A stretch of DNA of 64,000 bases from Sulfuriroseicoccus oceanibius (GTDB taxonomy: Bacteria > Verrucomicrobiota > Verrucomicrobiia > Verrucomicrobiales > SLCJ01), in contig NZ_CP066776.1 of NCBI RefSeq assembly GCF_010681825.2, forward strand, positions 744,001-808,000. The letters run 5' to 3'. Under the pieces are notes generated by a model, which was given only the letters and a program-made list of their open reading frames with translations, had not been told where the DNA came from and did no database searches. Positions 55,745-64,000 of this stretch are shown piece by piece. Each line of letters begins with the position of its first letter. Positions within the stretch are counted from its first letter, which is position 1. The position numbers and the translations under genes are program-made.

Positions 55745-55770
55745 GTTAACGTTGCGGAAGCGGTGTCCAT
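55745..55770 (+). promoter_or_regulatory. Candidate ECF sigma promoter, upstream of the sigma gene
   Basis: GTTAACG (55745-55751), 12 nt, TGTCCAT (55764-55770), with a T-run just before. It lies 40 nt before the sigma ATG, so would give autoregulation. One of five such sites, all with exactly 12 nt between the blocks. Confidence 0.75.
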
Positions 55771-55809
55771 TGTGACCGAAGCGGCTGGTGTCGCTTGTGC
55801 TTTCGCTCC

Positions 55810-56349
55810 ATGAACGAATCCGAATCCAGTTACGAATTTGTCGGCTTGCTCACCGACCACCAGGACATCTTGCGGATGTTTATTTCGTCGTTGGTGCCTG
55901 GCAGTCCAGACGTGCGGGATCTGGTGCAGGAGGTGAACATCGTGCTTTGGCGCAAGCGCGATGACTTTGAAATGGGAAGCAATTTTGCGGCGTGGGCGTG
56001 CACCGTTGCCCGCAACAAAGTGCGGGACTACCGCAAGAAGAAGGCTCGCTCGGGGTGGTTGGTCTTTTCCGATGAGCTCGCGGAGATGCTCGAACAGGAG
56101 GCGTTGCCCGCTGATCCGCTGGCTGCGGATGCGCGGCGCTCTGCATTGGCCCGCTGTTTGAACAATTTGAAACCCACCGAGCGGGAGATGTTGGAACAGC
56201 GGTATCAGAGCCGGTCTGAGGACATGGACGCGTTCGCTCAGAAGTTGGGGCGTACCCGGGCGTCGCTGCGGGTAACATTGTGTCGATTGCGCGCTGCCTT
56301 GCGGAAGTGTGTTGCATCGCAGTTGATTCGCGAAGGGGGGGGCATCTGA
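55810..56349 (+). CDS. ECF-type RNA polymerase sigma factor
   Basis: The 179-residue protein has sigma region 2 (LVQEVNIVLWRKRDDFEMGSNFAAWACTVARNKVRDYRKKKA) and region 4 (CLNNLKPTEREMLEQRYQS, then AQKLGRTRASLRVTLCRLRAALRKCV), the type seen in Verrucomicrobia and Planctomycetes. The stop overlaps the FecR gene start by 1 nt, so the two are coupled. A candidate autoregulatory promoter is 40 nt upstream. ATG 55810 (MNESESSYEFVG) was chosen. Confidence 0.93.
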   Translation: MNESESSYEFVGLLTDHQDILRMFISSLVPGSPDVRDLVQEVNIVLWRKRDDFEMGSNFAAWACTVARNKVRDYRKKKARSGWLVFSDELAEMLEQEALPADPLAADARRSALARCLNNLKPTEREMLEQRYQSRSEDMDAFAQKLGRTRASLRVTLCRLRAALRKCVASQLIREGGGI

Positions 56350-57968
56350 TGCGCGAGGGAAGGTTTCAGGATTTGTTGTCGCGCTTGGTCGAGCGTGATT
56401 TGGATGCTGATGAGATGGCGGAGTTGGATGCGTGGCTTCGACAGTCTTCGGAGGCACGGCGCGAGTATCTTGAGTACGTGGCGAATGATGTGCTGCTACA
56501 GGCGGAGCTGGCTCCGGTTGCAAGCTCCGGGGGTGACCGTCAGAGGGTGATTTCGATGCGCGATGTGCTGCGGATGCGTCGTGCGCGGGAGGTTAGGATT
56601 GCCGTAGCCGCTGCTGCTGCCGTGTTGTTGGTTTCCGCATTGGTGCTGAGTTTGTTGCGGGTGGATCAGTCGGTGGAATATGCACTGGAGGTGGAATTGG
56701 CTCCCGATAGTAGCTACACCATCGAGCATTTGCAGGACGGCAAATTGGTGGCTGCCTCGGATGCTGCGATGCGTGTGGGATCGCGAATGGTGCTGGAGCA
56801 GGGTGTCGTGCAGTTGGGGTTCGAGTCAGGTGTGACTGCTGTGGTGCAGGCGCCGGCGGAGCTGACGTTGCGGTCGGAGAGTGCACTGGAGCTAACGCGC
56901 GGCAAGGGGTGGTTCCGCGTTGAGGATGGCGCAGAGGGCTTCGAAGTGGTGACTCCTGAGTTCACTGTAAAAGATCTGGGGACGGAGTTCGGGGTGGTGT
57001 CGGTCGATGACGGCGCAGATCAGGTGCATGTATTCGAGGGGATCGTTGAAGTGACTCACGGTGCTGGTGCAGGCTCGGCCGTGGTTCTTAATGGAGGGGC
57101 GGCGCGCGAATTGGTGGACGGTGGTGATTTGCGTGAGGTGGCGCTCGCTCCGCATCAGTTTCTCAAGGAGTTGCCGGAGTATGTGCCCTACGTGCATTGG
57201 GCTTTTGAACCGCGGGACGGTTATGTAGACCTTGTGGCGGGTGGTACGCATCCGCTCGCCGAGGTGATGGAAACCGGCTTTCGAGCGCAGTCTGCTCCGG
57301 CGTCATTTGTCTCGACTCCTGGGGTTTTCGGGCAGGCGTTGCACGATATGGGGCAAGGCGGTTTAATTGGTACCGATTGGCCGGGGATTGGTGGCGATGC
57401 GCCGCGTACGATTGCCTACTGGGTGAAGCTGGAAGAGGGACACCGTTATCTTTATCCCGTGCTGGGATGGGGGGAGCGACGACTCGATCCAACACGCGTG
57501 GACAAAGCCGACGGTCCCGATACCAGTGCGTTTTTCTCGTTTGTGGAATCGCTGGATGCTGATTCGGGCAATACAGTGGCCGGCTTGTCATTTGGGGGCT
57601 ACTGGGTGAAGGGGCGTCGTCACATTGGCGATGGTAAGTGGCACCATGTGGTGCAGGTCTTTTCAGGTAAGTATCTTCCCAATGGTGCGCCGCATGTGGT
57701 GCAATATGTGGATGGTTGGCAGGACCGGACCGATTCCTTCTACCATGAGTACTGGATGGAAAGGGATGCCGAGAGGATCGAGGTGGCGACCGAGGTGAGC
57801 AGTCCTCAGTCGGTGCCGGTCTCAATGGCGAGCTCTTTGTTTTCGGCTGATGGTCCGGGCTCGCTGTCGCCTTTGATGTTGGATGAGGTCTATGTCATCG
57901 AGGGGGCGATCAACTCGTTCCGAGTGCGCCAGTTGATGGAGGAGAACCGAGTGGGCGAAGGGGAGTAA
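56349..57968 (+). CDS. FecR/LamG-domain anti-sigma-type membrane protein
   Basis: The 539-residue protein has a cytoplasmic N-terminus (~1-75; DLDADEMAELDAWLRQSSEARREYLEYVAND), a membrane helix at ~78-98 (VRIAVAAAAAVLLVSALVLSLL), a FecR domain (~150-245; VVTPEFTVKDLGTEFGVVS), and a LamG-like jelly roll (~290-530; APRTIAYWVKLEEGH, WHHVVQVF). FecR-type proteins bind and control the adjacent ECF sigma factor across the inner membrane. The periplasmic LamG may sense a polysaccharide. Coupled to the sigma gene by a 1-nt overlap. Confidence 0.92.
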   Translation: MREGRFQDLLSRLVERDLDADEMAELDAWLRQSSEARREYLEYVANDVLLQAELAPVASSGGDRQRVISMRDVLRMRRAREVRIAVAAAAAVLLVSALVLSLLRVDQSVEYALEVELAPDSSYTIEHLQDGKLVAASDAAMRVGSRMVLEQGVVQLGFESGVTAVVQAPAELTLRSESALELTRGKGWFRVEDGAEGFEVVTPEFTVKDLGTEFGVVSVDDGADQVHVFEGIVEVTHGAGAGSAVVLNGGAARELVDGGDLREVALAPHQFLKELPEYVPYVHWAFEPRDGYVDLVAGGTHPLAEVMETGFRAQSAPASFVSTPGVFGQALHDMGQGGLIGTDWPGIGGDAPRTIAYWVKLEEGHRYLYPVLGWGERRLDPTRVDKADGPDTSAFFSFVESLDADSGNTVAGLSFGGYWVKGRRHIGDGKWHHVVQVFSGKYLPNGAPHVVQYVDGWQDRTDSFYHEYWMERDAERIEVATEVSSPQSVPVSMASSLFSADGPGSLSPLMLDEVYVIEGAINSFRVRQLMEENRVGEGE

Positions 57969-57987
57969 ACGTTGTTTGTGTTTTTTG

Positions 57988-58013
57988 GTTAACGCTCAGT
58001 TGGTTGTGTCCAT
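57988..58013 (+). promoter_or_regulatory. Candidate ECF sigma promoter, before PEP-CTERM gene 1
   Basis: TTTTTTGGTTAACG then 12 nt then TGTCCAT (58007-58013). The start codon of PEP-CTERM protein 1 is 83 nt downstream. Confidence 0.78.
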
Positions 58014-58095
58014 TTGACCTGTATGGCAGCTAATCAGGCTCCGGCCGAGTGTCGGGGGGGCTCACGCCTGCCTACTACCAACAAACACAATCACC

Positions 58096-58869
58096 ATGAT
58101 CAAAATATCTATCACCTCACTGATCGCTGGGGCTGCCATGATTGGCGTAGCCAGCGCGGCGACTTCTTTAACCAATCAGTTGCTGGTCAACTTCGATGGC
58201 TCGTTGGCTGGATCGACCTACACATTGGGTGGCGGGGAAATCGACACTACGGGAACATTTTCGGCCAGTGGCGGCGTGGGAGTCGTTCCAGGTTCGGCAT
58301 TTGTCGCCGGAGGGACTGACGGCTTTACTCTCGATCCCACATCTATCGGGACGCTCACGAGTACCAGCTGGGTTGCTGAGACTGTGGTGAGCTTTAATAC
58401 ATTCGGAGGTGGGCAATTAACGGCTATCAGTGTTCAGGGTGACACCGACTTCCGTATCAATAACAATGGAGGCGAACTGCAAGTGGGGTATTGGGACGGA
58501 GGGACCTACGGGAGCGTGGCAGGCGATCTTCCCGATGTAGGGGTGCCGGTGCATCTCGCGATGGTGTGGGATGCTACAAACTCCAGTCTCACCGGTTATG
58601 TGAACGGAGTGATGCTCGGAACAGTGGATAACAATGACTTTGCTGTGCCGGATTCTTCGTACGTGAGCTACGGTTTCTTCGATCGCTCCGGTTTCGAAGG
58701 GCGCGGAATCGATGCGGAGATGTACGGGGCGGCATTTTCCACCTTCACCGGCACCTTTGATGAAGGAGCTGACTTTCAGTTGAGTCTGGCGACCAACGTG
58801 CCCGAGCCGACCTCGACCACGCTGCTTGGTCTTGGTGGCTTGGCTTTGATTCTGCGACGCCGTCCCTAA
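58096..58869 (+). CDS. PEP-CTERM sorting-domain protein 1 (LamG-like)
   Basis: The 257-residue exported protein has a signal peptide (MIKISITSLIAGAAMIGVASA), a LamG-like region (WVAETVVSFNTFGGGQLTAI, then VHLAMVWDATNSSLTGYVNG) and the C-terminal VPEPTSTTLLGLGGLALILRRRP: PEP motif, hydrophobic helix, Arg cluster. Such tails are cleaved by exosortase and the proteins go to the surface or extracellular matrix. A candidate sigma promoter is 83 nt upstream and a strong terminator follows. Confidence 0.92.
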   Translation: MIKISITSLIAGAAMIGVASAATSLTNQLLVNFDGSLAGSTYTLGGGEIDTTGTFSASGGVGVVPGSAFVAGGTDGFTLDPTSIGTLTSTSWVAETVVSFNTFGGGQLTAISVQGDTDFRINNNGGELQVGYWDGGTYGSVAGDLPDVGVPVHLAMVWDATNSSLTGYVNGVMLGTVDNNDFAVPDSSYVSYGFFDRSGFEGRGIDAEMYGAAFSTFTGTFDEGADFQLSLATNVPEPTSTTLLGLGGLALILRRRP

Positions 58870-58906
58870 CTGATTGCCGGGGGCTGTGCGCAGAGGCTCG
58901 AATGTT

Positions 58907-58952
58907 AGAACATCCACCATCGGCTAGCCGGTGGTGGATGTTCTGTTTTTTG
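58907..58952 (+). terminator. Terminator of PEP-CTERM gene 1
   Basis: AGAACATCCACC (58907-58918) pairs with GGTGGATGTTCT (58933-58944), followed by a T-run. Confidence 0.95.
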
Positions 58953-58964
58953 AGGAAGGATTTT

Positions 58965-58990
58965 GTTAACGCCCGTTTGCGCCTGTCCAT
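58965..58990 (+). promoter_or_regulatory. Candidate ECF sigma promoter, before PEP-CTERM gene 2
   Basis: TTTTGTTAACG, 12 nt, TGTCCAT (58984-58990), 69 nt before the start codon. Confidence 0.78.
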
Positions 58991-59058
58991 TGAGGTGTGT
59001 GACAGGTGGCGAGGCGTAGTGCCGGCCAGAGCTGTCGCATTAACCAATAGATAAAACG

Positions 59059-59703
59059 ATGAAAAAAACGATGATGACAGCGCTGTTTGCCGGCGCTGCA
59101 ATGATGGGGGCTGCTAATGCCGCGGTCTTGATTGGAGATGGAGTGAACAATGGTGGCTTTGTAAGCACCACAACTGGTCGGACGGAGGGCACTGCTCTCA
59201 CGGATTGGACCATCACAGGAGCCAAGGTCTGGCTCAATACGGGTGGATCAACACTCACTACCGCGCCGTTTGGTGCTGATGTTGCAGCGAACTCGCGGTC
59301 GGTTCAGCTTGAGGATGACGGTGGGGTGACCCTTACTTCGGCCGCAGTTGCATTGGTTGCTGGTGAGTCGCTGACATTTGCGATCGACTGGTTGACTGCA
59401 GGTTCGGGAGCTGAGCATACCTTGACTATGGATTTGTGGGATGGAAGCAATAGCATCGCGTTGGGTGTCTTGAGTACGACTGGAGGTCCAACGAGTTACA
59501 CTCAGTTTGATAGCGCAGCTTCGGTGGGAGTGAGTGGCAATTACCAATTGCGTATGACCCTGACTGGTGGAGCAGGTCAAGGCAGGGACATTCATGTGGA
59601 CCGTGTCTATTTGGAGTCCACAGCCCAGGCGGTGCCTGAGCCATCGTCGACCGCATTGCTTGGTCTTGGTGGCCTGGCGCTGATTTTGCGTCGCCGCAAG
59701 TAA
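59059..59703 (+). CDS. PEP-CTERM sorting-domain protein 2 (jelly-roll domain)
   Basis: The 214-residue protein has a signal peptide (MKKTMMTALFAGAAMMGAANA), one beta-sandwich domain (GDGVNNGGFVSTTTGR, APFGADVAANSRSVQL, HTLTMDLWDG, DIHVDRVYLE), and the tail VPEPSSTALLGLGGLALILRRRK. The same sandwich, with the same PFGAD, LTV-LWD and HIDRV motifs, is fused to the fucosidase at 61019, so the two probably bind the same kind of glycan. Confidence 0.92.
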   Translation: MKKTMMTALFAGAAMMGAANAAVLIGDGVNNGGFVSTTTGRTEGTALTDWTITGAKVWLNTGGSTLTTAPFGADVAANSRSVQLEDDGGVTLTSAAVALVAGESLTFAIDWLTAGSGAEHTLTMDLWDGSNSIALGVLSTTGGPTSYTQFDSAASVGVSGNYQLRMTLTGGAGQGRDIHVDRVYLESTAQAVPEPSSTALLGLGGLALILRRRK

Positions 59704-59753
59704 GCGGTTGATGCGGGGCTTTCGTGAAGCCCCCCCGGATTGTGATCCGGGAT

Positions 59754-59798
59754 CCTCCATCGCCCGAAATCGGGAGGGGGGTGGAGGAATGCTTTTTT
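59754..59798 (+). terminator. Terminator of PEP-CTERM gene 2
   Basis: CCTCCA (59754-59759) pairs with TGGAGG (59782-59787), with CCCG-aaat-CGGG inside, then a T-run. Two further hairpins precede it (GGGCTT/AAGCCC at 59716 and CCCGGAT/ATCCGGG at 59734). Confidence 0.85.
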
Positions 59799-59839
59799 GT
59801 GGTGGTTGTGGTGTGGTTAGAAATGCGGGTGAATTTTGT

Positions 59840-59865
59840 GTTAACGCTGACCGGGTGTCGTCCAT
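59840..59865 (+). promoter_or_regulatory. Candidate ECF sigma promoter, before PEP-CTERM gene 3
   Basis: TTTTGTGTTAACG, 12 nt, CGTCCAT (59859-59865), 78 nt before the start codon. Confidence 0.78.
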
Positions 59866-59942
59866 GTACGGGTGTGGCGGGCTGGCTGCGTGCGGTTTGG
59901 TGCCGTTGCGGGCTGCCTGCTAAACAAAAAAACCTAGACATA

Positions 59943-60830
59943 ATGATGAAAAAAACGATGGCAACGCTCCTTGTGGGCGCCGCGATGATCGGGTCCTCCA
60001 GCGCAGCCCTGCATATTCAGGAGTTGTTCGATGGGATGGCAGCTGACACGAATATTGGTGGCCAGGGCGATAGTTCGACTACAGTTGGCCTCACAGGAAC
60101 TTGGGCGGCCACTGGAAGTACCGGGATCAACACCGCAAATAACTTCAACGTCGATGGCGGCACGTTGCCGGGTTTGGCTTCCAATGCCGGAGCTCAGGGT
60201 GGCGTCTGGAATGGAACTGGTAGCTGGGATACCGGCATCTATGCGACTCGCGGCATGACCTCGTCGATCGACTTCAACAGTGACGGGGTGATCTATTTCA
60301 GTGTTCGTTTGCGCAACCACGGGGACACCGCGATGGGGATGGGTTTCGCTTCTGGTGCGGGAGGTTCGTCCGAGTTTGTTGGCGCCGGCTTCAGCTGGAA
60401 TAACTTTACCGGCGGAAGTGGCAACGCCGCATACATTTCCCATGGCACGCTTGATGGAGGTCAGGGTGTCTACGGCCAGCAGGCTGCCGAGGCAGCTGGT
60501 GGCGTTAATGGGTACGGCCTCCTGGTGGGGCGGATTACCCTCAGTTCGACTGGTAACGACTTGATCGATATCATGCGCTATGCGGAGAATGATACGATTG
60601 ACAACAACCTTTCGTCGATCAGTTGGACGGCACAGAGTGCGTTCGACTCGTCGATGAGCGCCAGTCATCTGCTCTTGTGGATGAATGGTAGCGGTGGAGG
60701 TGAGCTTGATGCGATCCGCGTTGGCTCTGATTGGGTCGATGTTACTGGTGTGAATGCGGTTCCTGAGCCGTCGTCGACCGCATTGCTTGGCCTTGGTGGG
60801 CTTGCTTTGATCCTACGTCGCCGCAAGTAA
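59943..60830 (+). CDS. PEP-CTERM sorting-domain protein 3
   Basis: The 295-residue protein has a signal peptide (MMKKTMATLLVGAAMIGSSSA), a Gly/Asn/Ser-rich beta domain (SWDTGIYATRGMTSSIDFNSDG, then IYFSVRLRNHGDTAMGMGF), and the tail VPEPSSTALLGLGGLALILRRRK identical to protein 2. Two ATGs (59943, 59946) open the frame; the frame upstream was rejected. The tail, terminator and next promoter match the block after gene 2, as if copied. Confidence 0.92.
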   Translation: MMKKTMATLLVGAAMIGSSSAALHIQELFDGMAADTNIGGQGDSSTTVGLTGTWAATGSTGINTANNFNVDGGTLPGLASNAGAQGGVWNGTGSWDTGIYATRGMTSSIDFNSDGVIYFSVRLRNHGDTAMGMGFASGAGGSSEFVGAGFSWNNFTGGSGNAAYISHGTLDGGQGVYGQQAAEAAGGVNGYGLLVGRITLSSTGNDLIDIMRYAENDTIDNNLSSISWTAQSAFDSSMSASHLLLWMNGSGGGELDAIRVGSDWVDVTGVNAVPEPSSTALLGLGGLALILRRRK

Positions 60831-60884
60831 GCGGTTGATGCGGGGCTTTCGTGAAATGTCTCTTCTCGGATCAAGATCCGGAAT

Positions 60885-60926
60885 CCTTCATCGCCCGAAA
60901 TCGGGAGGGCGGTGGAGGGTTTTTTT
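60885..60926 (+). terminator. Terminator of PEP-CTERM gene 3
   Basis: CCTTCA (60885-60890) pairs with TGGAGG (60913-60918, one G-U) and CCCG-aaat-CGGG inside. The T-run ends 2 nt before the GTTAACG of the next promoter. Confidence 0.82.
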
Positions 60927-60928
60927 GT

Positions 60929-60954
60929 GTTAACGCTGACCGACCGTCGTCCAT
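60929..60954 (+). promoter_or_regulatory. Candidate ECF sigma promoter, before the fucosidase gene
   Basis: TTTTTTTGTGTTAACG, 12 nt, CGTCCAT (60948-60954), 65 nt before the fucosidase ATG. Near-identical to the site at 59840. Confidence 0.78.
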
Positions 60955-61018
60955 GTACGGGTGTGGTGGGCACCTTAGGTGCAGTTGTTGTGGATGATGT
61001 TTGATTACTAAACAGCGA

Positions 61019-64000
61019 ATGAAAGAATTTGGACGGAAGGCGCTCCTCTATGTTGGAGTCGGTAGCGCATGGGTTTTGGGGCCGGTGGATGCGGCGATCA
61101 TTGATGCCTCGAATGGGAACGGTGGGTTTGTCAGTGAGACATCGTCATTCAATGGTTCGCTGGAGGGATGGACCGCGGAGAGAGGTGTGTGGGTGGATTC
61201 CGGCAACAGTGGATTAAGTACGGATCCTTTTGGTGCTGACAACACCTCCAACTCGCGCTTCGTTCAGATTCATAACAATAGCGGCGAAACTCTGACCTCC
61301 TCCCGCACGTTCACGGTGGCGCAGTCCGATACGATCGAGCTAAGCTTTGACTATAAAACCGGTGGCAGTGGTGATGATACCACACTGACGGTCTCGCTTT
61401 GGGATACCCAGGCGAATACCACCTACGCGACCCTGGGCTCGATCAGCACCAGCTCGTCCCAGGCATCGTTCATCCAGGTGAACTATTCGCTGAGTGCGCC
61501 ATCGGCCAACACCAACCTGCAGTTGCGCTTCAGCTTGAGTGCCGGCGGCAAGGATGTGCATATCGATCGCGTGCACTTGGTGGGTGGTGAGATTACTCCA
61601 CCACCACCACCGGCGGTGATCGACTACGATACGGTGCAGTATCTGGATCCATCGGATAGTGAAGCGGTGCGGATTGAGAAGGCTGCGAAGTTGTTGCCGT
61701 CGCCTCGCCAAGTGGATTGGCAGCGGTTGGAAACGACGTATTTCATCCACTTCGGGCCGAATACCTTCAACGAAGTGGAGTGGGGCGACGGCCGCGAGTC
61801 GGTGGATGATTTCAACCCGACCGCTTACGACGCGTCACAGTGGGTGAATGTGATCAAGAATGCCGGCGGCACCATGTTGATGCTGGTGGTCAAGCACCAC
61901 GAGGGTTTTTGTTTGTTCCCTAGCCGCTACACGGATCACGATTTGGAATCGAGTGCGTGGCAGAGTGGCACGGGCAACGTGGTGCGCGATGTGGCGGATG
62001 CGTGTGCGGCAGCCGGGATCAAGTTCGGGGTGTATCTGTCGCCGGCGGATTTGTATCAAATTGAATCCGCGACCAACTACACAACGGGCTCGGGTTACTA
62101 TGGACATGGTAGCGCCACCCGGTTGTCGACCATTCCGACCAATCCGGCGACCTTTGGCAGCGATCCGACCCAGGGACGGACGCCACCCGCCGGCTTTGAG
62201 TCTTATGAATACCAAGCGGACGACTATAATCGTTACTTCCTCAACCAGCTTTATGAATTGCTGACGGAGTACGGGGATATCGCTGAAGTTTGGTTTGATG
62301 GAGCGACACCAAAGAACGGGCCGCAGCCACAGGCGTATAACCGCCACGATTGGTATGATCTGATTCGCAAACTCCAGCCGGGCGCAAACATTGCGGTGAA
62401 GGGGCCGGATGTGCGGTGGGTTGGTAACGAACATGGTCACTCGCGCGAAACCGAGTGGAGTCCCATTCCGATCCCCCAGCATCCCGATGTTTATACATGG
62501 GGGGATGCCACTGCGACCGACCTGGGGAGCCGTGCTCGGTTAACTGGTGGGAACTACCTGACCTGGTGGCCGGCGGAAGCGGATGTGCCAATTCTCAGTG
62601 GATGGTTCCACACACCAAGCCGCGGTGTGAAGTCGGCGAATACACTGATTGATATCTATTACAAGTCGGTTGGACGGAACTCGAATTTGTTGCTCAACTT
62701 GTCTCCAGACAAGCGCGGCCTGATCCCGGAGAACCAAATCACTCCGCTGATGGAGGCGATGACCATTGTACAACAAACCTTCTCTAATAATCTGGCCTTG
62801 GACGGCACGGTGACGGCGGATTCGGAGTTGGCCGAAAGCCCGGCCAGCCGCATGATTGATGGGGACTTGGATAGTTATTGGGAGTCGGAAGCAGGCAACA
62901 GCACGCCAACCGTGACGCTGACAATGCCTGAGGTGAGAACCTTCGACCGCGTTGTGTTGCAGGAAGCCATCGCCCAGCGGGGGATGCGTGTTGAAACGTT
63001 CGCAATCGATGCGTGGATCAATGGCGCCTGGGTGCAGCAGGCCACGAGTACTTGTGTCGGGCACAAACGGATTTTGCAGATCCCTGAAGTGACCACAGAC
63101 CGGGTACGCATTCGTATTACCCAGTCGCGCACAGAGCCGACTCTGGCGAATGTCGGGTTGTACCAGTCTGCCGAGCTTCTGGATTCACCTCAGATTGCCG
63201 AGCGGGACGCTGCCGGAAGAGTGGTGATCACCGCCGCGGCCGGTGACACGATTCATTACACGATCGACGGGACGACTCCGACCATGGCATCACCGACCTA
63301 CAGCGGTGCGGTGGACTTGCCACTTGGGGGCACGGTGCGGGCCATCGCGGTGAATGGAAACTCGGTGAGCTTCGAAACTATCAAGACTTTCTCGGGCTAT
63401 TCGCCGACAGGATGGACGGTGATTTCGGTTAGTAGTGAGGAGGGGGCTGAGCCTGGAAGTTATGCGATCGATGATGATCCATCGACCAACTGGCACACGG
63501 ATTACGCTGCGGCGGCTGCGCATCCGCACCACCTGACGGTGGACATGGGAAGTGTCCGCTGGATTGGTGGGTTTTCCTACCTTCCTCGGGGTACTGGAGC
63601 CAACGGAATCGCGAAGAACTATGTGTTTGAAGTGAGTACGGACAACTCGGAGTGGACGACGGTGGCTACAGGCGAGTTCTTGAATATCAAAAACAACCCA
63701 GTGCTGCAGCAGGTGCCATTCGATGCGATCGAAGCGCGTTACTTCCGCTTCACCGCGAGCGATGAAGTGAATAATGCCAACTGGACCTCTGCTGCGGAGA
63801 TTAATGTCCTGCCCGGTGGGTTTGATGGGTTCCGTCAGCAGCACGGACTCCAAACATCGGCGCCGACATCTGATTCGGATAACGACGGACAAGACTTGCT
63901 TGCCGAGTACTACTTTGGCAACAGCCCGGTGACGAAGGAGCAGATGCCGGTACCGATTGTGGCGGCTCCCGTTGCAGGCGGTGTGGCATTGGAAGTGGTA
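61019..64000 (+). CDS. Exported multidomain GH29 alpha-L-fucosidase (partial, runs off the window)
   Basis: 994 codons are visible with no stop. After a signal peptide (KALLYVGVGSAWVLGPVDA), residues ~25-190 repeat the jelly roll of PEP-CTERM protein 2 (DPFGADNTSNSRFVQI, KDVHIDRVHLVG). A Pro linker follows, then GH29 (~205-580): YFIHFGPNTFNEVEWGDG, VKHHEGFCLF, and EVWFDGATP, where D427 fits the nucleophile. Then an F5/8-C-like domain (~590-715), a chitobiase-C-like domain (~725-780; HYTIDGTTPTMASPTYSG), a second F5/8-C-like domain (~800-930) and DSDNDGQDLLAEYYFG. It cleaves terminal alpha-L-fucose outside the cell. No PEP-CTERM tail can be seen because the end is missing. Confidence 0.9.
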   Translation, partial: MKEFGRKALLYVGVGSAWVLGPVDAAIIDASNGNGGFVSETSSFNGSLEGWTAERGVWVDSGNSGLSTDPFGADNTSNSRFVQIHNNSGETLTSSRTFTVAQSDTIELSFDYKTGGSGDDTTLTVSLWDTQANTTYATLGSISTSSSQASFIQVNYSLSAPSANTNLQLRFSLSAGGKDVHIDRVHLVGGEITPPPPPAVIDYDTVQYLDPSDSEAVRIEKAAKLLPSPRQVDWQRLETTYFIHFGPNTFNEVEWGDGRESVDDFNPTAYDASQWVNVIKNAGGTMLMLVVKHHEGFCLFPSRYTDHDLESSAWQSGTGNVVRDVADACAAAGIKFGVYLSPADLYQIESATNYTTGSGYYGHGSATRLSTIPTNPATFGSDPTQGRTPPAGFESYEYQADDYNRYFLNQLYELLTEYGDIAEVWFDGATPKNGPQPQAYNRHDWYDLIRKLQPGANIAVKGPDVRWVGNEHGHSRETEWSPIPIPQHPDVYTWGDATATDLGSRARLTGGNYLTWWPAEADVPILSGWFHTPSRGVKSANTLIDIYYKSVGRNSNLLLNLSPDKRGLIPENQITPLMEAMTIVQQTFSNNLALDGTVTADSELAESPASRMIDGDLDSYWESEAGNSTPTVTLTMPEVRTFDRVVLQEAIAQRGMRVETFAIDAWINGAWVQQATSTCVGHKRILQIPEVTTDRVRIRITQSRTEPTLANVGLYQSAELLDSPQIAERDAAGRVVITAAAGDTIHYTIDGTTPTMASPTYSGAVDLPLGGTVRAIAVNGNSVSFETIKTFSGYSPTGWTVISVSSEEGAEPGSYAIDDDPSTNWHTDYAAAAAHPHHLTVDMGSVRWIGGFSYLPRGTGANGIAKNYVFEVSTDNSEWTTVATGEFLNIKNNPVLQQVPFDAIEARYFRFTASDEVNNANWTSAAEINVLPGGFDGFRQQHGLQTSAPTSDSDNDGQDLLAEYYFGNSPVTKEQMPVPIVAAPVAGGVALEVV

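Follow-up and report, generated by a model that had tools for sequence, protein, structure and literature searches.

The window, meaning the whole 64,000-nt stretch of DNA that was analysed (C1:744001-808000 of the source genome), contains a plus-strand gene cluster headed by an ECF sigma factor of the TIGR02989 family (55810..56349, +), a protein of 179 aa with R154 (SLRVTL) as a recognition-helix residue. This sigma factor matches TIGR02989 (Sig-70_gvs1) over its full length at 147.8 bits (cut-off 124.55), has a full-length sigma70-ECF match and a Pfam Sigma70_r2 match, and gave no score with Pfam region 4; it combines region 2 with a region-4 helix-turn-helix and lacks regions 1 and 3, the composition by which ECF sigma factors are recognized. 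Overlapping it by one base is the gene of a membrane partner (56349..57968, +), which consists of a short N-terminal part, one hydrophobic segment, a FecR domain (PF04773, 32.1 bits, cut-off 24), and a C-terminal lectin-like region, and which aligns over nearly its full length, at 33% identity, with the partner from another sigma cluster of this genome (L111) that matches a ConA-like lectin family. By analogy with FecR systems, we propose that the window partner may serve as an anti-sigma factor and sensor. The partner gene is followed by genes for three exported proteins with PEP-CTERM sorting signals (58096..58869, 59059..59703, and 59943..60830, all +) and for an exported GH29-type alpha-L-fucosidase with F5/8 type C domains (61019..64000, +, running on to window-equivalent 64183), on which no PEP-CTERM tail was found. 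Downstream of the cluster there is a gene for a HAMP and SpoIIE-type phosphatase protein (L106:11523-13271).

Promoter-like sites in the window and the genome

A preliminary description of this DNA had reported five copies of a bipartite element at an exact 12-nt spacing, 40-83 nt ahead of the start codons of the sigma gene and of the four exported-protein genes. The pattern search recovered all five copies of GTTAACG-N12-YGTCCAT at the positions reported, each an exact match on the + strand, and none in 100 dinucleotide shuffles. Site 1 (55745..55770, GTTAACG-N12-TGTCCAT) precedes the sigma gene, as would suit autoregulation, and was found by the pattern search and by the family-wide motif described below; sites 2 (57988..58013), 3 (58965..58990), 4 (59840..59865), and 5 (60929..60954) come from the pattern search. 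All five are intergenic, with 40, 83, 69, 78, and 65 nt, respectively, between the end of the site and the ATG. The T-run that had been described before every copy stands out at sites 1, 2, and 5, is weaker at sites 3 and 4, and is accounted for by a general A+T-rich stretch preceding the -35 block (60% A+T vs 43% locally over 90 sites).

Across the whole genome (3,496,488 bases in one contig), exact copies number six, all on the + strand and all in this one cluster, the sixth lying just beyond the window edge (C1:808208-808233, window-equivalent 64208, +); the AAC-bearing block GTTAACG is present in 6/6. The complement strand and a backward control pattern gave no exact copies genome-wide, no copy with one mismatch exists in the whole genome, and with up to three mismatches the whole-genome counts (167/162 vs 182/160 for the backward control) are at background level. 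The expected genome-wide enrichment before PEP-CTERM genes, of which the genome has about 40, was thus not borne out: the proposal of one regulon is supported within the cluster, and a genome-wide regulon is rejected, as the other PEP-CTERM genes carry no copy of this version. Among 386 other genomes, the exact window version occurred in six, with one copy each, so that conservation of this version was not found; three of those six matches, inspected by eye, look like coding sequence.

Sites 4 and 5 both fall within a duplicated block that covers the preceding PEP-CTERM tail, the intergenic region, and the promoter site (first copy 59629..59926, second copy 60756..61014, both +); because of this they count as one event, and the five sites represent fewer than five independent events. 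Recent gene-cassette duplication alone, with no selection on the sites, could be read from this block as the source of the likeness among all sites, and is as such extremely improbable: sites 1, 2, 3, and 6 have identical blocks amid unrelated spacers and flanks, which largely refutes it, and the motif is found again upstream of sigma genes in numerous other genomes. The duplicated unit of PEP-CTERM tail and promoter suggests that cargo genes multiply by recombination in shared parts. Site 6 is followed (64208-64344 in window-equivalent coordinates; L106:11208-11344) by a 31-codon remnant ending VPEPSPAFLLGMGGLPLALFRHG, apparently a decayed PEP-CTERM gene that, judged from its sequence, kept an intact promoter copy. 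An intrinsic terminator with an 18-pair stem and a T-tract (58906..58945, +) ends 19 nt upstream of site 3, and in view of its strength and placement at least the gene behind site 3 would seem to be transcribed separately.

A bipartite motif upstream of related sigma genes

From 387 Verrucomicrobiales genomes, the genes of sigma factors closely related to that of the window were gathered (n = 146, including the window's own paralogs), and their upstream regions were searched de novo by expectation-maximisation with a model of two blocks and a flexible gap. The resulting motif, TGTTAAC[C/G]-N13-CGgCATtT, reached a log-likelihood ratio of 482.7, against 38.7-51.8 on shuffled regions, and random starts converged on it in the first 86 loci. 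Confident sites (z>0.9) were present in 90/146 of the upstream regions, more than a third being without one. The best conserved -10 core across the family is CAT; in the family register the window element reads GTTAACG-N13-GTCCAT, with its CAT core at the family position, and by this alignment the window motif is to be regarded as a variant of the family motif. The comparison with related sigma genes that had been recommended thus yielded the same bipartite arrangement in the set of 146. Classical ECF promoters have 16-17 nt from AAC to a GTC-like -10; the window spacing is the shorter AAC-N14-GTC, or, counted to the conserved CAT core, AAC-N17-CAT. The distance from the end of the -10 block to the sigma start codon had a median of 15 nt over the 146 loci, from which it follows that many such messages should have very short leaders.

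In a relative represented by a MAG, whose sigma factor shows 52-55% identity, GTTAACG-N14-GAAATA precedes both the sigma gene and a divergent PEP-CTERM gene. Ten more distant relatives gave a clear site in one only, a relative from another order (L301) in which GCTAACG accompanies R154-V155 as predicted; the distant sigmas with other helices among these ten gave no clear site.

The association with PEP-CTERM genes was examined by using each sigma's own site as a query and another sigma's site as the control. Within the loci, close matches to the local sigma's site preceded 15/62 PEP-CTERM genes, against 2.8 for the control, and 16/830 other genes, several of which look exported. Excluding the present genome, the counts were 11/55 PEP-CTERM genes (2.0 expected from another sigma's site) vs 14/790 other genes (Fisher 7e-8). 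The calling of genes and of PEP-CTERM status in these loci relied on simple tools, a gene caller and a C-terminal pattern, and only a minority of the PEP-CTERM genes near sigma genes have a matching site. A large ORF directly follows the sigma gene in 137/140 testable loci; 31 partners, the window's included, were scanned, with 25 matching FecR and 14 a lectin-like family.

Sigma residue 154 and the -35 base

In an unguided comparison of protein and promoter columns, the top-ranking of all residue-base pairs was residue 154 with the base after TAAC (corrected MI 0.599 vs SD 0.063), and the second was residue 155 with an inner -35 base; we take both residues to lie in the predicted recognition helix of ECF region 4. 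The base after TAAC was a purine in 30 and a pyrimidine in 3 of the R154 loci, and 3/54 in the K154 loci. Plain pattern counts, made without the motif model, agree with these motif-based counts: NTAACG accompanied R154 in 34/63 and K154 in 2/68, NTAACC/TAAACC accompanied R154 in 1/63 and K154 in 52/68, and NTAAG accompanied S154 in 11/15. The rule was noticed in 86 loci and then held on 60 fetched afterwards (R 9/1, K 1/24). Promoter distance likewise tracks protein distance (Mantel r 0.44, 0/5000 permutations; spacer control 0.15). A tree that leaves out the helix has four switches at residue 154, two of them on a branch with a base switch (p about 0.01); given so few independent events, much of the strong tabulated association reflects shared ancestry. 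Between sigma region 2 and the variation in the -10 block no clean coupling emerged, and an idea drawn from three sigmas, that N69 vs Y determines GTCCAT or GAAATA, was not borne out in the wider set, where the -10 couplings look phylogenetic. A match search for a solved structure of region 4 gave no useful hit.

These results bear on what reads the sites. Highly conserved blocks at fixed spacing can also be operators, so that a separate DNA-binding regulator might bind them; we consider this very unlikely, as the first block covaries with the recognition helix of the sigma factor, the motif lies close before sigma genes across genomes (by the median distance given above), and the window has no other regulator gene lying between the sigma gene and the cargo genes. 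It is by contrast very probable that the sigma factor from the gene at 55810-56349 recognizes the motif as a promoter; it would drive its own operon and the cargo of the cluster, with the FecR/lectin-like partner as its probable holder. This reading is favoured because three independent lines converge on it, namely the family motif, the coupling of helix and -35 block, and the occurrence elsewhere of the same arrangement of sigma site and PEP-CTERM genes; the preliminary assignment of the two blocks as -35 and -10 elements of the adjoining, autoregulated ECF sigma factor gains support from the same comparisons.

Paralogous clusters and relation to known systems

Eight sigma genes in the genome score above the TIGR02989 cut-off, most of them adjoining PEP-CTERM genes, and four sigma clusters bear differing versions of the motif. 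The L111 cluster has GTTAACG-N13/14-G(A/G)(A/C)AT before its sigma gene, two PEP-CTERM genes, and a metalloprotease gene; the L107 cluster has TGATAACGTTT with GACGT before a sigma gene and a PEP-CTERM gene; and the L109 cluster has TGTAAGR..GAGGCTGTC (also TGTAAGR with GAGGCTGT) before PEP-CTERM genes, its sigma factor being S154, as the residue-base rule predicts. The L109 sigma's own upstream region yielded no confident site, and the L110 and L112 clusters yielded no convincing site in common with the sigma gene. The number of family sigmas, together with a -35 core common to the window and L111 clusters, leaves some room for reading by another sigma factor (a paralog, for instance, or the housekeeping sigma). 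We judge such reading very unlikely, since the exact motif is confined to the cluster of the window sigma, the paralog clusters bear other versions, and sigma-70-like matches are about as frequent in the region as in shuffles, and none falls on a site in the correct orientation.

With the window sigma as the reader, sigma region 4 would bind GTTAACG as the -35 element, R154 going with the G that follows TAAC, and GTCCAT would be the -10 element. The sigma factor would transcribe its own sigma-FecR operon, giving positive feedback, and separate promoter copies would serve the three PEP-CTERM surface proteins, the exported fucosidase, and the decayed sixth gene. We infer that transcription starts from these sites, and that the membrane FecR/lectin-like partner probably keeps the sigma factor inactive and lets it go on an external cue, possibly a glycan. 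For the Verrucomicrobiales at large, we hold it an evenly balanced proposition that genomes carry arrays of paralogous sigma/FecR-lectin/PEP-CTERM cassettes with mutually insulated promoters, each cassette sensing a different surface cue and switching on its own set of exosortase-sorted surface proteins, and with the -35 base determined in large part by residue 154 (R, K, or S).

Autoregulated ECF sigma/anti-sigma systems include E. coli RpoE and B. subtilis SigW. The window system resembles these in its small two-domain sigma factor, the AAC in its -35, its autoregulated promoter, and its membrane partner in the same operon, and site 1 would be expected to work like such an autoregulated ECF promoter; it differs in having TTAACG rather than GGAAC at -35, CAT rather than GTC as the -10 core, and PEP-CTERM surface proteins as cargo. 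With FecI/FecR iron-siderophore signalling it shares an ECF sigma factor followed by a FecR-domain membrane partner, but the partners here often have a lectin-like C-terminal region, the cargo comprises surface proteins and a fucosidase, and the Pfam-scanned proteins of the cluster included no TonB-dependent receptor with a signalling domain; for this last reason the window system does not strictly qualify as a FecI/FecR iron system.

In Proteobacteria, PEP-CTERM genes are under sigma-54/PrsK/PrsR control, with a -24/-12 element upstream of many of them, and further motifs within and outside that phylum were stated as still to be found (PMC1569441). A common upstream element before many PEP-CTERM genes is the point of likeness (PMC1569441), whereas the window element is of ECF type and adjoins its sigma gene; by inspection, its conserved blocks contain no GG-N10-GC of the sigma-54 -24 GG/-12 GC kind. 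By its family match, the window sigma is a member of TIGR02989 Sig-70_gvs1, described as a Rhodopirellula/Verrucomicrobium family. The literature searched yielded no promoter for this family; as it did not include the 2021 ECF reclassification (gkaa1229), an earlier prediction of a similar motif is possible. What appears to be new, as far as sequence comparison goes, is the candidate promoter of the TIGR02989 family, the residue-base rule, and the presence of several differing cassettes in one genome. TIGR02989-type sigmas and PEP-CTERM proteins are numerous in Verrucomicrobiota, but their regulation has hardly been studied. With a predicted promoter and a residue-to-base rule, regulons across the order could be read from sequence, with hints at the cues to which exosortase cargo responds, and the sigma/promoter pairs, several of them naturally distinct, might be used as orthogonal switches.

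Two minor observations concern other parts of the genome. Beside another sigma cluster, a probable exported esterase gene (L108:4855-7076) looks, by eye, to be split by a transposase-like gene. An identical 26-mer, TTTACCGCCTGGAGTGTCTCGTTCAT, occurs at G000:C1 286742, 438196, 477805, 649545, and 884839, which points to a multi-copy element.
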